A DNA stretch of 64,000 bases from contig JAAFJM010000012.1 of NCBI GenBank assembly GCA_013298895.1, positions 1 through 64,000 on the forward strand, given 5' to 3'. This document shows positions 51,109 to 56,625 of the stretch, piece by piece (within the stretch, counting starts at the first letter, position 1; each line of letters starts with the position of its first letter). The notes under the pieces are model-generated. The model saw only the letters and a list, made by a program, of their open reading frames with translations. It was not told the origin of the DNA and did no database searches. A program made the translations under genes and the position numbers. This DNA comes from Bacteroidota bacterium (GTDB lineage Bacteria; Bacteroidota; Bacteroidia; UKL13-3).

Positions 51109-51888
51109 TTGGATACCTCTCGTTTTATTCCTTTTGACAATCCAATATTGGATAGTGATATTCCTGAAAAGTTTGTGTTGATGCTGCATAATACTCCACA
51201 TAAATTATGCTTAATGGCCGCTAACCAGGTTCAGGATTATTTGTTAAAGCAAACCGATTGGGTGCATAATTTTGGACTGAATAATCATATAAACGGAAAT
51301 GTTATTGGTAAAATGTTTGGCGTATTAGTTGTAAAAAACCAACAAAACGAAATTGGTTTTTTAGCTGCCTTTTCAGGTAAATTAGCCAATACAAATGATC
51401 ATTCTTATTTTGTACCTCCAGTATTTGATAGTTTAGCTGAAAATAGTTTTTTAAACAAAGGAATGACTCAACTTTCAGCCATAATTGAGGAAATAAATGA
51501 ATTAGAAACTCAGCAACAAATTATTAACCTGCCCCAAATAAGTGCACTTAAAATTAAGCGAAAAGAACACTCTATCAAACTACAACACTTGCTATTTGAT
51601 AATTATATTTTTACCAATCAGCTTGCAAACAGCAAAAATACGCATGAAGTTTATAAAGATGCGCTGTATAAAAATCCGCCAGCAGGTGGTGGCGAATGTG
51701 CTACCCCCAAGTTATTACAATATGCTTTTAATAATAAAATGAAACCTTTGGCCGTAGCTGAATTTTGGTGGGGACATTCACCTAAATCTAACCATTGGAA
51801 GCACAAACAATATTATGCTTGTTGTAAAGAAAAATGTGAACCTATTTTAACCCACATGCTTATGGGTATTGAATTTGAATACAAATAG
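51109..51888 (+). CDS. Lone N-terminal accessory domain of RluA-type pseudouridine synthase
   Basis: Bacteroidota and related bacteria have RluA-family synthases with an N-terminal accessory domain of this type. All its signatures are here: FVLMLHNTPHKLCLMAANQVQDYL, GKMFGVLVV, FLAAFSGKL, FVPPVFD, and at the end PPAGGGECATPKLLQYAF, PLAVAEFWWGHSPKSNHWKHKQYYACCKEKCEPILTHML. In the usual fusion the catalytic domain with its conserved RLD motif follows. Here the ORF ends (EFEYK, TAG) and no catalytic domain follows in any frame before the next gene. The start is TTG (51109) with no nearby ATG. It may be a domain that acts separately, or a truncated gene. It is 29 bp downstream of rsmH, so the rRNA-modification context fits. 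Confidence 0.75.
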   Translation: MDTSRFIPFDNPILDSDIPEKFVLMLHNTPHKLCLMAANQVQDYLLKQTDWVHNFGLNNHINGNVIGKMFGVLVVKNQQNEIGFLAAFSGKLANTNDHSYFVPPVFDSLAENSFLNKGMTQLSAIIEEINELETQQQIINLPQISALKIKRKEHSIKLQHLLFDNYIFTNQLANSKNTHEVYKDALYKNPPAGGGECATPKLLQYAFNNKMKPLAVAEFWWGHSPKSNHWKHKQYYACCKEKCEPILTHMLMGIEFEYK

Positions 51889-51992: not shown

Positions 51993-54900
51993 ATGAAAAG
52001 AAATTTACTAGGTTTACTTTTATTGGTTTTTGTTATGCAGTTGAAGGCACAAATGGTTGGCGATACCATAAAAGTTAAAACATTTCATTATGGAAGTGCA
52101 ACTCGAGATACCTTTATTCAGTTTCCTTCTGGAGACTTAACTTACGAGAAAATAATTATGAAATACAATATGCGTTGTAAAAATGCATTGATTTCAAATA
52201 GTACTGATAGAAATTTAGGATGTGGAGAATGGGATTATAGCTGTAATACATATATAGTTGATTCTAATAAAGTTGAAGAAGTAACAGCTACTCAACCTAA
52301 TTATGTTATTGCTAATTTTACAGGAACTAATTTTAAATATACCACCAAAATTCCTTACGATTACTACAATTATACCCAACAAAAGGTTAGTGTAAATAAT
52401 ATTACAACTGATAATCAATATGAAGTGGCAACGGGTAATTTACCAATTGACTTTTTGTTAAAAGCCAATGAACGTTCAGGTAAGTCACAGATTTTATACC
52501 GTGCTTCGGAACTATTGATGGCTGGTTTAACTGCAGGTAATATTGATGGATTAACATTAAATGTAGGTAACAATGGAGGCAAAGCTAGTTTCTTAAAAAT
52601 TAAAATTAAAGGAACTCAAGCCAATTTCCTAAACTCAAAAACACCGACTTTAACTGGATTTACAGAAGTTTTGAATCAAGATTATGAGTTTATAAATGGT
52701 TTAAATACCATTAGGTTTAAAACACCATTTGTATGGGATGGAGTTCAAAATTTAATAATTGAATATTCTTATTCTAATACAGTTCCAAGCAATCCAATTC
52801 AGTTTATTGGAACAAGCGATTCATTAACGGTTGGTTTATATGCAAATAATAATTATGCATTAGATTTAATGAACCAAGGCTTGGTTAAATTGGATGCCTC
52901 TAATTTTGCTGAATTAAGTAAAGAATTAACAATATCTTTTTGGGCGTTTGGCAATGCTAGTTCCATGCCAGTTACTACTTCCATTTTATATGGATATGCC
53001 ACAAATTTAAACGAAAGACAATTAAACATTCATTTGCCACATTCTAGTAATAATGTGTATTTTGATTGTGGGTATGCAGCTGGAGGATATGATAGAATAA
53101 ATAAAATTGCTACTGCTGAAGAACAAGGCGGTAAATGGAATCACTGGACGTTTACAAAAAATGCCACAACTGGAAATATGAAGATATTTTTAAATGGCGC
53201 ATTGTGGTTTTCTGGAACAGGTAAAACCAAAGCCATTTCAATTTTGAATTTATTGTTAGGTAAAGATCAAGCCAATGGCAATAACTATAAAGGTAAAATT
53301 AACGAATTAGCAATATGGAAAAAAGAAATGCCAGACTCCTTAATTTTAGGTTGGATGAATAAGCCATTAAATTCTACTCATCCTTTATACAATCAGCTAT
53401 TATCCTATTATCCTTTTAATGAAGGAACAGGTTTAAATGTGGTTAATAAAATAACAAACAATAATTTAATAGGCGAAAATTTAAAATGGACTTACGATAG
53501 AGGTGAAAATTTAAATCGTACTTTTTTTGAAACTAATTTGAGACCTAGTATTCAGTTTTTAAGAAGCAATTACTCATTGTCGGTGCAAAATGTGGTAGTA
53601 AAAGATTCTATTGCAAAAAACACTGCTACCATTCAAAAATACAGAATTACATCGAAAGCGGGTATCTTCCCTTTAGCTAGCGATGTGGTAATACTTGATA
53701 CCACTTATACTAATTATTATGAAGCATCTAGTTCAAAAATATTTAATGGAGATAGCGGAACAGTTATAAGTAGTCTACCTATAGCTAGTGAAGGCGAATT
53801 TGTAATTTCAAATTTAAATTATATCAATAGATTTCCATTTTATAATGAAATCATGTCATTTGTTACTCCTTATGGTATTGGTTTAGATTTAGGAGTTAAT
53901 GGTAAAAACTGGTATTTTGATGTAAGTGATTTTGCTCCTTTGTTAAAGGGAAATAAGCGCATACTAATGACTTTGGGAGGGCAAAATCAAGAACAAAATG
54001 ATGTTGAGTTATGGTTCATTGTAGGTACCCCAGTTAGAAATGTATTGGAGTTTAATCAACTTTGGCAAGGAACCAACAGATTGGGAGCTGCAGTAATTGC
54101 TACCATTAACAATGATACTAAGTTTCCACCTATAAATGTTCCAATTTTAAATAATGGTAAATCATTTAAAATACGCTCATCAATAACTGGACATGGAGCA
54201 GAAGGTGAATTTGAAAGCAATGGAGGTCCTATTGATCACAAACTGAAAATTAACAATGTAGAAAAATTCAATTGGAGTATTTTACAAGAATGTGCCTCAA
54301 ATCCAGTATTTCCTCAAGGCGGAACTTGGATTTATGACAGACAAGGTTGGTGTCCGGGTGAAAGTTCATTACTAAAAGAACACAATATTACTTCAATGGT
54401 TTCTCCAGGTACTACTGTTAATTTTGACTATAATACTTCATATCCAAGTAACTCAAACGGGGAATATAAATACCAAGTAGCACACCAATTAGTTACCTAT
54501 GGCGAACCTAACTTTAATCTTGATGCGCGCATAATTGATGTTTTGAATCCAAGCGATAAAATTATCAATGCAAGAAATAATCCAGTATGTGCAATGCCTA
54601 ATATTGTAGTTCAAAATACTGGTTCTACCAATATTACGAAGCTCGAAATTAGTTATTGGATAAATAATGCTACTTCTAAGCAAAGTTATACTTGGATAGG
54701 CAACCTAAGCTTTTTAGATACAGCATCTATTTCTTTGCCAATTGGTACTTTATGGAACAATGGCTTGCAAGCAAAAGACAATAAATTTTATACTCAAATA
54801 TTAAAAGTAAATAATGTTGCTGATAATTACGTCAACAATAATTTGTATGAATCACCATTTAACAAACCAGAAGTAGTTACCAGTAATTTTATTATTGAGT

Positions 54901-55457
54901 TAAGAACAAATAATAAACCTTCGGAAAACTCATATAGCCTGCTTGATGAAAATGGTTTTTTAGTTGATTTTAAAGTTTTTGATAAACCAAATACCGTTTA
55001 TTCAACAACCTATAATTTAGGTGGATGTTATACTTTAGTAGTTAATGATGATGGACATGATGGTCTTTCTTTCTGGGCTAATTCTGCTCAAGGTACAGGT
55101 TATGTTAGAGTTAAAAAATCTACAGGAGCAGTAATTAAAACTTTGCAGCCTGATTTTGGAAGTGGTATTGCTTACGGATTTACCACCAATTGGACCTTAA
55201 ACAATGAAGAATATTCACTAGATAAAGTTATTAATTTGTATCCAAATCCGACCTCTGAAAAATTTATTTTGGAAGGTGAAGAGCTACAAAACTCCACTGT
55301 AAAGATTTATGATGTGATTGGTAAAAACTATACTCTACCAAATAGTTTTTATAAAAATACCATAGAGTTTAACAGTTCGTCTTTACCTAAAGGAGTTTAT
55401 TTTGTAGAGATAGTTAAAGGTGAATATAAAACTGTAAAATCACTTGTTATCCAATAA
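51993..55457 (+). CDS. Secreted PNGase F-like protein with LamG-type domain and T9SS type A sorting domain
   Basis: After a signal peptide (KRNLLGLLLLVFVMQLKAQ) the protein has an N-terminal region with FPSGDLTYEKIIMKYNMRC and GCGEWDYSC, resembling the start of peptide-N-glycosidase F. A laminin-G/concanavalin-like domain occupies about residues 270-460 (LTISFWAFGN, KWNHWTFTKN, MKIFLNGALW, INELAIWKKEM). From about 585 to 830 follow PNGase F-like beta domains with SSITGHGAEGEFES and FPQGGTWIYDRQGWCPG, which is the C-terminal PNGase F signature. The last ~80 residues are the sorting domain (NLYPNPTSEKFILEG ... KIYDVIGKNY ... GVYFVEIV). It may cleave N-glycans or a related amide from external glycoproteins; activity is inferred. 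Confidence 0.88.
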   Translation: MKRNLLGLLLLVFVMQLKAQMVGDTIKVKTFHYGSATRDTFIQFPSGDLTYEKIIMKYNMRCKNALISNSTDRNLGCGEWDYSCNTYIVDSNKVEEVTATQPNYVIANFTGTNFKYTTKIPYDYYNYTQQKVSVNNITTDNQYEVATGNLPIDFLLKANERSGKSQILYRASELLMAGLTAGNIDGLTLNVGNNGGKASFLKIKIKGTQANFLNSKTPTLTGFTEVLNQDYEFINGLNTIRFKTPFVWDGVQNLIIEYSYSNTVPSNPIQFIGTSDSLTVGLYANNNYALDLMNQGLVKLDASNFAELSKELTISFWAFGNASSMPVTTSILYGYATNLNERQLNIHLPHSSNNVYFDCGYAAGGYDRINKIATAEEQGGKWNHWTFTKNATTGNMKIFLNGALWFSGTGKTKAISILNLLLGKDQANGNNYKGKINELAIWKKEMPDSLILGWMNKPLNSTHPLYNQLLSYYPFNEGTGLNVVNKITNNNLIGENLKWTYDRGENLNRTFFETNLRPSIQFLRSNYSLSVQNVVVKDSIAKNTATIQKYRITSKAGIFPLASDVVILDTTYTNYYEASSSKIFNGDSGTVISSLPIASEGEFVISNLNYINRFPFYNEIMSFVTPYGIGLDLGVNGKNWYFDVSDFAPLLKGNKRILMTLGGQNQEQNDVELWFIVGTPVRNVLEFNQLWQGTNRLGAAVIATINNDTKFPPINVPILNNGKSFKIRSSITGHGAEGEFESNGGPIDHKLKINNVEKFNWSILQECASNPVFPQGGTWIYDRQGWCPGESSLLKEHNITSMVSPGTTVNFDYNTSYPSNSNGEYKYQVAHQLVTYGEPNFNLDARIIDVLNPSDKIINARNNPVCAMPNIVVQNTGSTNITKLEISYWINNATSKQSYTWIGNLSFLDTASISLPIGTLWNNGLQAKDNKFYTQILKVNNVADNYVNNNLYESPFNKPEVVTSNFIIELRTNNKPSENSYSLLDENGFLVDFKVFDKPNTVYSTTYNLGGCYTLVVNDDGHDGLSFWANSAQGTGYVRVKKSTGAVIKTLQPDFGSGIAYGFTTNWTLNNEEYSLDKVINLYPNPTSEKFILEGEELQNSTVKIYDVIGKNYTLPNSFYKNTIEFNSSSLPKGVYFVEIVKGEYKTVKSLVIQ

Positions 55458-55480: not shown

Positions 55481-55515
55481 AAAAGGCTGTGAATAAAATT
55501 CATAGCCTTTTTTTT
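55481..55515 (+). terminator. Terminator of the PNGase F-like gene
   Basis: AAAAGGCTGTGAAT (55481-55494) pairs with ATTCATAGCCTTTT (55498-55511, one G-U pair), followed by more T. Confidence 0.92.
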
Positions 55516-55611
55516 GTTAATACTTTTGTTATCAACAGATTAAATCTAACAAAAATGTTCTATTTTATATAATTATTGCCTTATTTTGTAAATCCTTATA
55601 AGTTTATTATC

Positions 55612-56625
55612 ATGAAAATAATTCAATTAAAATTTATTTTAGAACAACTTACCTTTGATTTAATTGGAAAAGATTCCTACAGAGGTGTTACCTTAACTTA
55701 TGCTTGGTTAGCTAATCAATTCGGGCACATGGCTTTAGGATTTATTCCTACTGTTTTAATTTACCAAATTGTAAAGCAATATTCAAAATCTAATAATTTG
55801 AATATGATAATTGCTACTTGTGTTACCACATTTTGGTTTTCGTTTGAAATTTATAATGTGGTAAATCCAATTTTTTTTAAAAATACCCAAGCCTATAATT
55901 TTAAACCCGATTTGTACAATGTTATTTTTGATACCTTAACCGATATTTGTTTTTTTGCAATTGGGGCCTTTTTAGCAGGGTTAACTATTAGGTTAAATCA
56001 ATCTCTGATTATTGTAAATGCCCTACTTTTGCTAACTGTAATTTATCCTTCTTATTATTGGTACACCACAAAAATGTATCAGCAAGAGGCCAAATTTCCA
56101 TTTCAATTAAGACTTAGCCAATGGAAAACTAATCTTGATGAAAACAGTAAAACTGTGATAAATAATTTTGTAAATAACACTAATAAAGGACATCACTTAT
56201 TGGTGTTTGGAAATTACAAAAGTGGCAAAACTAGCTTAAGCGTAGCTATTGCTAACGAACAATCCATAAAACATAAAAAATCGCTTTATACCTCGGCTAC
56301 TAAATTTTATAATTTACTTTATGAACCAAATCCAACAGAAAATGATTTAAAAATAAATAACTTATGGGGATGGAGAAACACTGACTATTTGATCATTGAC
56401 GATATCAATCCAAGCATTAAAATAAACGGAGTGTATGTGGAGCCACACACTTTTTTTAATTTATTAAACAATAACCAATTTGGAAAAGAAAATTTAAATG
56501 CACTTCAAAATACCAATATCATTTGGGTGTTAGGTGAAAATAATAGTGATTGTTGCGATTGGGAACAATTACTTATTTCATTAGGTATACCAAAAGAAAA
56601 GATTTCTCAACTGATGTTATCGTAA
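55612..56625 (+). CDS. Membrane-anchored P-loop ATPase of unknown function
   Basis: The first 150 residues contain several hydrophobic helices (AWLANQFGHMALGFIPTVLIYQIV, MIIATCVTTFWFSFEIYNVV, LTDICFFAIGAFLAGLTIRL, SLIIVNALLLLTVIYPSYYW). The last ~180 residues form a P-loop ATPase with Walker A (VFGNYKSGKTSLSVAI) and Walker B (DYLIIDDINPS), and an ATSAxxFxxLL-like stretch (YTSATKFYNLLYEP) like that of DnaC/IstB-type AAA+ loaders. I know no such named fusion. The start at 55612 was chosen as the first ATG; a TTG 36 bp upstream is possible. It is monocistronic. A role in membrane-linked DNA or protein handling is only inference. Confidence 0.7.
   Translation: MKIIQLKFILEQLTFDLIGKDSYRGVTLTYAWLANQFGHMALGFIPTVLIYQIVKQYSKSNNLNMIIATCVTTFWFSFEIYNVVNPIFFKNTQAYNFKPDLYNVIFDTLTDICFFAIGAFLAGLTIRLNQSLIIVNALLLLTVIYPSYYWYTTKMYQQEAKFPFQLRLSQWKTNLDENSKTVINNFVNNTNKGHHLLVFGNYKSGKTSLSVAIANEQSIKHKKSLYTSATKFYNLLYEPNPTENDLKINNLWGWRNTDYLIIDDINPSIKINGVYVEPHTFFNLLNNNQFGKENLNALQNTNIIWVLGENNSDCCDWEQLLISLGIPKEKISQLMLS

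Follow-up and report, generated by a model that had tools for sequence, protein, structure and literature searches.

A Lipocone-like membrane domain joined to an initiator-type AAA+ domain in a family of Bacteroidota proteins

Lipocone domains belong to a superfamily, defined in 2025, whose members are proposed to act on phosphate-linked lipid head groups and are predicted to be head-group transferases or phosphoesterases (PMC12419801). Their proposed active site comprises a histidine in helix H2, a glutamate in H3, an aspartate in H4 and a glycine near the end of H4, and the outer leaflet has been proposed as the target of the integral membrane forms (PMC12419801). One of the families, Wok, is partly covered by the Pfam model DUF2238 and counts VanZ among its relatives in the superfamily, and some Wok members have been suggested to be cardiolipin synthases (PMC12419801). 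The cpCone clade, to which the phosphatidylserine synthases PTDSS1/2 belong, is marked by a polar residue six positions before the H2 histidine and by a second glutamate three positions after the first in H3 (PMC12419801).

The AAA+ ATPases DnaC, DnaI, IstB and DnaA share Walker A and Walker B motifs. In DnaC, ATPase activity needs each of Walker A, Walker B, sensor 1, the arginine finger and sensor 2 (PMC8213410), and the sites of IstB, the IS21 helper, use the arginine finger of a neighbouring subunit together with a sensor 2 arginine (PMC11208146). Here we describe a family of proteins that combine a Lipocone-like membrane half, as judged by profile comparison, with an AAA+ domain of this kind. 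Both parts are of known kinds; their combination makes a new variant.

The fusion gene and its relatives

The gene lies in a 64,000-nucleotide stretch of contig JAAFJM010000012.1 from a Bacteroidota bacterium (hereafter the window). It is read without stops over 337 codons, and the opposite strand across the same interval contains many stops. The start is assigned to the ATG at 55612; an extension that begins with TTG at 55576 is absent from more distant relatives. Because a hairpin and T-run precede the gene and the gene on its 3′ side is on the other strand, it is likely to form a single transcription unit, with a transcript separate from that of the upstream gene (Table 1). The Bacteroidota −33/−7 promoter pattern was not found upstream of the fusion gene, and its frequency in the window is no higher than expected by chance.

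Table 1. Positions in the window of the fusion gene, its parts and the preceding hairpin
Feature	Position	Strand	Basis
Terminator-like hairpin and T-run, between upstream gene and fusion gene	55481..55512	+	Read from sequence
Whole gene, 337-aa putative Wok-like Lipocone/DnaC-IstB-type AAA+ fusion	55612..56625	+	Open reading frame; start backed by relatives
Invariant N-terminal segment, predicted cytosolic, residues 12–36 (Q-x3-DLIGKDSxRGxxLxYxxLANQ)	55645..55719	+	Invariant positions in 15 and 39 sequences
Membrane helix 1, residues about 28–54, taken as Lipocone H2	55693..55773	+	AlphaFold2 helix; aligns with DUF2238 GHFxxGFxP
Predicted active-site His39, in helix 1	55726-55728	+	39/39
Membrane helix 2, residues about 63–88, taken as H3	55798..55875	+	AlphaFold2
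Glu79, in helix 2	55846-55848	+	39/39
Asn82, in helix 2	55855-55857	+	39/39
Membrane helix 3, residues about 101–126, taken as H4 (D107-T108-x-x-D111, G118)	55912..55989	+	AlphaFold2; D107, D111 and G118 39/39; aligns with DUF2238 WDTQSDMLxAxxGA
Membrane helix 4, residues about 130–157, candidate displaced H1 (cpCone-like order)	55999..56082	+	AlphaFold2 helix; hydropathy peak
Juxtamembrane linker, residues 149–171 (W150, K154, Q158, P163, Q165, R167, L168 and Q170 invariant)	56056..56124	+	39/39
DnaC/IstB/DnaA-type AAA+ domain, residues 173–337	56128..56622	+	Sequence models and fold matches
Walker A, GNYKSGKT, residues 200–207	56209..56232	+	G205 and K206 39/39; T/S207
Walker B, YLIIDD, residues 259–264	56386..56403	+	D263 and D264 39/39
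Sensor 1 strand NIIWVLG, non-canonical in having no polar sensor residue (invariant W305 and G308)	56515..56535	+	

Full-length relatives, 39 distinct proteins in all, occur in Bacteroidota (Pedobacter and others) and keep the same domain order. Conservation was scored on a 15-sequence alignment and then on the 39 distinct proteins; in the 15-sequence set, 31% of positions in the N-terminal half are invariant, against 12% in the C-terminal half, so that conservation is stronger in the membrane half. Its invariant positions cluster in four blocks, QxxxDLIGKDSxRG...LANQxGH, FExxN, NxxxDTxxDxxxFxxG and WxxxKxxxQxxxxPxQxRLxQ. Maintenance of the two-part frame in so many distinct proteins, with this degree of invariance, argues that it is not a chance open reading frame.

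Close homologues are encoded in the genus and family of the window's genome and in many Pedobacter genomes. The distribution is patchy, with the full-length protein present in only 6 of 395 genomes of the class and the gene in 26 of 147 genomes of one genus (that of G324), and the tree is orderly, the window's lineage forming one supported group. About 240 further genomes gave family-profile matches in DnaA-sized frames that cover the ATPase part only; these were not counted as family members. Strong N-domain matches lacking the ATPase were not found in the 395 genomes, and no family match was returned from phage, plasmid and viral collections, viral contigs included.

The initial annotation knew of no named family with this architecture, which still holds for the resources searched: no Pfam or NCBIfam model spans the membrane–AAA+ fusion, a literature search returned no description of it, and the main text of the Lipocone survey mentions no fusion of a Lipocone with AAA, IstB, DnaA, DnaC, P-loop or NTPase domains (PMC12419801).

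The membrane half resembles DUF2238/Wok

Four hydrophobic helices had been read from the sequence ahead of the P-loop module, and all four appear in the AlphaFold2 model, with pLDDT of about 80–97 in their cores. The Pfam model DUF2238 (PF09997) matches the window protein weakly (E 0.0022; 18.3 bits, under the cut-off of 26.4), and weak matches were found in 6 of 15 family members (E up to 1). Profile–profile comparison of the N-terminal half with DUF2238 gave 94.5% and an E value of 8e-8. When the 39-sequence profile was run against 1,326 open reading frames, DUF2238 proteins came out on top (best E 3e-6), except for one unrelated kinase. The N-domain profile, run against 395 genomes of the phylum, gave strong matches in two family members and nine weak matches, comprising eight frames of 180–222 residues for DUF2238-like membrane proteins (this identity having been confirmed with Pfam for two of the eight) and one histidine kinase. 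DUF2238 itself occurred only in E. coli among 14 control genomes. The N-terminal membrane region of a histidine kinase (locus L070 of G449) scores about 19–20 bits with the N-domain profile and lacks the DUF2238 residue pattern; this match is probably due to chance.

In the alignment, H39 corresponds to the histidine of the DUF2238 GHF motif, and D107-T108-D111...G118 corresponds to DTQSD...G. The register of E79/N82 against the DUF2238 ExxE motif is uncertain by one helical turn, and the motif reads ExxN here. The residues proposed for the Lipocone active site are all found, namely His in H2, Glu in H3 (with the one-turn uncertainty), Asp in H4 and Gly near the end of H4. Like DUF2238/Wok, the family consists of membrane proteins with a GHxxxGFxP block, an ExxE/N helix and a DTxxDxxxxxxGA block in the same order. 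Unlike Wok, it has neither the two-helix N-terminal extension nor an H1 before H2, the first membrane helix already carrying the histidine; it also has an extra helix after H4, an AAA+ domain and a pocket predicted to face the cytosol. The helix after H4 is seen in the AlphaFold2 model and may be a displaced H1, which would resemble the circularly permuted order of the cpCone clade, but both cpCone marks are absent, the position six before the H2 histidine being L33 and that of the second H3 glutamate N82.

The initial annotation had also pointed to VanZ-like families. This hint held in so far as DUF2238/Wok, to which the domain comes closest, is related to VanZ (PMC12419801), and failed for VanZ itself: PF04892 has no match in the window protein, the family profile gives VanZ proteins no more than background scores, and membership of VanZ was rejected on these grounds. 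The resemblance to VanZ Lipocones that are fused to cytosolic signalling domains lies in the arrangement, a Lipocone and a signalling-type domain in one chain, and the main text of PMC12419801 describes no such fusion to AAA+. A Foldseek search of the PDB with the N-domain model returned no match below E 1 and so lends the cone fold no structural support. On these sequence comparisons, the membrane half is best placed in a divergent Lipocone-like family near Wok that is a member of neither Wok nor the cpCone clade.

Since the number of helices is even, the ATP-binding half must be cytosolic and basic residues lie mostly in the N-terminal segment and loop 2, both termini of the protein are predicted to be cytosolic. 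Lys and Arg residues together number about 4.7 in the N-terminal segment and 3.9 in loop 2, against 1.5 in loop 1 and 0.3 in loop 3, although loop 1 is short and its Lys/Arg density equals that of the inside loops, which weakens the positive-inside comparison there. H39, E79, D107 and D111 would then lie at cytosolic helix ends, beside the invariant segments of the N terminus and the juxtamembrane linker. A cytosolic ATPase should therefore place the polar pocket on the cytosolic side, the reverse of what has been proposed for membrane Lipocones, and the predicted target leaflet is the inner one, as against the outer leaflet proposed for the integral membrane forms (PMC12419801).

The AAA+ half has lost the usual catalytic arginines

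The C-terminal half had been described as an IstB/DnaC-like P-loop ATPase, with KSGKTS and LIIDDIN as its motifs. Both are present, at residues 203–208 and 260–266, and the assignment is borne out by matches to NCBIfam PRK06835 (2e-8), IS21 IstB (1.1e-5), a PHROG DnaC-like loader (2.7e-10) and Pfam Bac_DnaA (4.1e-5, over the gathering score). Foldseek with the AlphaFold2 model gave IstB 8q4d (2.6e-4), IstB 8q3w, DnaI 2w58 and DnaC 3ec2 as the best PDB matches, with DnaA also at the top. The Walker A pattern GxxxxGK[TS] and the DD of Walker B are invariant in the 39 sequences, and the order of strands and helices is that of IstB, the DnaC/DnaI loaders and the DnaA AAA+ domain. Walker motifs and fold matches alike place the domain in the initiator clade of AAA+ proteins.

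Unlike IstB, DnaC, DnaI and DnaA, the family has no conserved arginine finger, sensor 2 or polar sensor 1. Across the 39 sequences, Arg does not exceed a frequency of 31% in any column after Walker B, and sensor 1 reads (V/I)(L/M/I)G throughout, with the Gly invariant. The box VII arginine of the relatives' IstB (...MDR/LDR...) and DnaA (LLSRF), which served as controls, has no conserved counterpart in the fusion family. A further difference from IstB, DnaC and DnaI is that the helicase- or transposase-binding N domain is missing and the membrane domain stands in its place. These residue patterns point away from a standard loader ring; the AAA+ half is predicted either to bind ATP as a switch or to be an ATPase that borrows the missing residues from elsewhere.

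Gene neighbours and possible function

In the window, the gene is surrounded by genes for RsmH, a secreted N-glycanase-like protein, an OEP efflux protein and YbaB; these neighbours differ in relatives, and a functional link to them was dropped. The secreted protein (51993-55457, + strand) has 1,154 residues, with a Laminin_G_3 domain, a PNGase F C-terminal domain and a Por secretion tail; it is present in the closest relative (L017) and missing between the same genes in L018. Beside rsmH lies a frame of 258–259 codons (51109-51888, + strand) that has no Pfam match and is conserved in the genus; it resembles the extension found at the N terminus of some Bacteroidota RluA-type pseudouridine synthases, the catalytic domain being absent. 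At eight other loci (L090-L095, L097 and L099), inspection by eye placed the fusion gene among genes for a GH13-like secreted protein, an MFS transporter and glgC/glgA-like proteins; this neighbourhood was set aside as functional evidence, being confined to that set of loci.

A more widespread association is with PAS regulators. In Pedobacter and several other branches, the fusion gene converges on a gene for a 245-aa PAS-LuxR regulator, the two ends lying a few bases apart, and this tail-to-tail pairing spans deep branches while the remaining flanking genes vary. Among the 147 genomes of the genus mentioned above, PAS-LuxR is found in 21 of the 26 that have the fusion gene and in 16 of the 121 that do not (Fisher p 3e-11, uncorrected for shared ancestry); in five genomes (G810, G820, G849, G851 and G863) the two genes co-occur on different contigs. 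PAS-LuxR is missing from the window's own lineage and is therefore not obligatory. In the most diverged branch (L108 of G024 and L109 of G011), a PAS-HATPase gene begins 14–25 nt beyond the end of the fusion gene on the same strand, which suggests an operon. The common thread of these contexts is PAS signalling, not DNA processing. The neighbours in other genomes, housekeeping genes or PAS regulators, give no support to the role in DNA uptake, defence or phage biology that had been suggested at first.

The reading we favour, tentatively, is a cytosol-facing enzyme or sensor for lipid head groups that is switched by ATP and feeds transcriptional control. The N-terminal four-helix domain would be a divergent Wok/DUF2238-like Lipocone whose His/Glu/Asp/Asp pocket opens to the cytosol and binds, and probably modifies, inner-leaflet phospholipids or polyprenyl phosphates at their head groups. 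The invariant juxtamembrane linker would hold the DnaC/IstB-type ATP-binding domain against the membrane domain. Since it lacks the arginine finger, sensor 2 and polar sensor 1, the AAA+ domain would not form a self-activating ring motor but would act as a switch that depends on ATP. Membrane or nucleotide state would be passed to, or controlled by, PAS regulators, PAS-LuxR in many relatives and the PAS-HATPase kinase in one lineage. Topology, catalysis, substrate and the direction of signalling are all predicted in this scheme. A more specific form of it, in which inner-leaflet head-group chemistry by an inverted Lipocone enzyme is gated by the DnaA/IstB-like ATP switch, activated in cis or in trans by juxtamembrane basic residues that replace the arginine finger, and coupled to PAS-LuxR, is speculative and on balance unlikely.

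The evidence from PAS regulators would also fit a membrane receptor without catalysis, in which the Lipocone-like domain does no more than bind a ligand, from the lipids or the envelope, and the AAA+ domain signals this binding to partners in the cytosol, for instance these regulators. The PAS-LuxR linkage and co-occurrence, the closely spaced PAS-HATPase gene and the VanZ Lipocones reported in sensor positions (PMC12419801) all speak for it, but every predicted catalytic position is invariant, which exceeds the needs of a mere binding site, and we regard a pure receptor as rather unlikely. The fold and profile matches to DnaC, DnaI, IstB and DnaA had led the initial annotation to a membrane-tethered AAA+ loader, which would load or remodel a DNA-bound partner at the membrane. 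In its simple form, such a helicase loader is improbable, because no Arg is conserved after Walker B and sensor 1 is no longer polar; the fusion protein also has no helicase-binding domain, no DNA-processing gene is consistently nearby, and the N-terminal half is the more conserved one. Still less probable is defence or abortive infection, with the ATPase sensing infection and the Lipocone domain attacking lipids. The patchy distribution, the presence of Lipocones in predicted antiviral systems (PMC12419801) and weak PADLOC matches (for example, mad8 at 2.5e-5) would agree with it, but those matches are partial and to generic P-loops, no significant model covered most of the protein, and defence-island context was not found. 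Housekeeping neighbours, the lack of homologues in the mobile-element collections searched, and a single-copy gene that is conserved rather than diversified also count against it. Weak matches to many P-loop families could even be taken to indicate a P-loop kinase or ABC-type transporter component instead of AAA+, a reading to which we give hardly any credence given that the best sequence and fold matches are consistently to initiator-clade AAA+ proteins.

The family offers a natural case of an initiator-type AAA+ domain without an arginine finger and a case of a Lipocone pocket that is expected to face the cytosol. The unification of Lipocone domains dates only from 2025, and the activities of most of their families are untested; here, the domain is paired with an ATP switch, to which many relatives add a specific transcription regulator, and this makes substrate and regulation testable in culturable Pedobacter. 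Gene regulation may be coupled to the state of the inner membrane through the fusion protein, which, if the scheme of an inverted, cytosol-facing Lipocone enzyme that is ATP-gated and coupled to PAS-LuxR is true, would be a new kind of membrane-lipid signalling protein.
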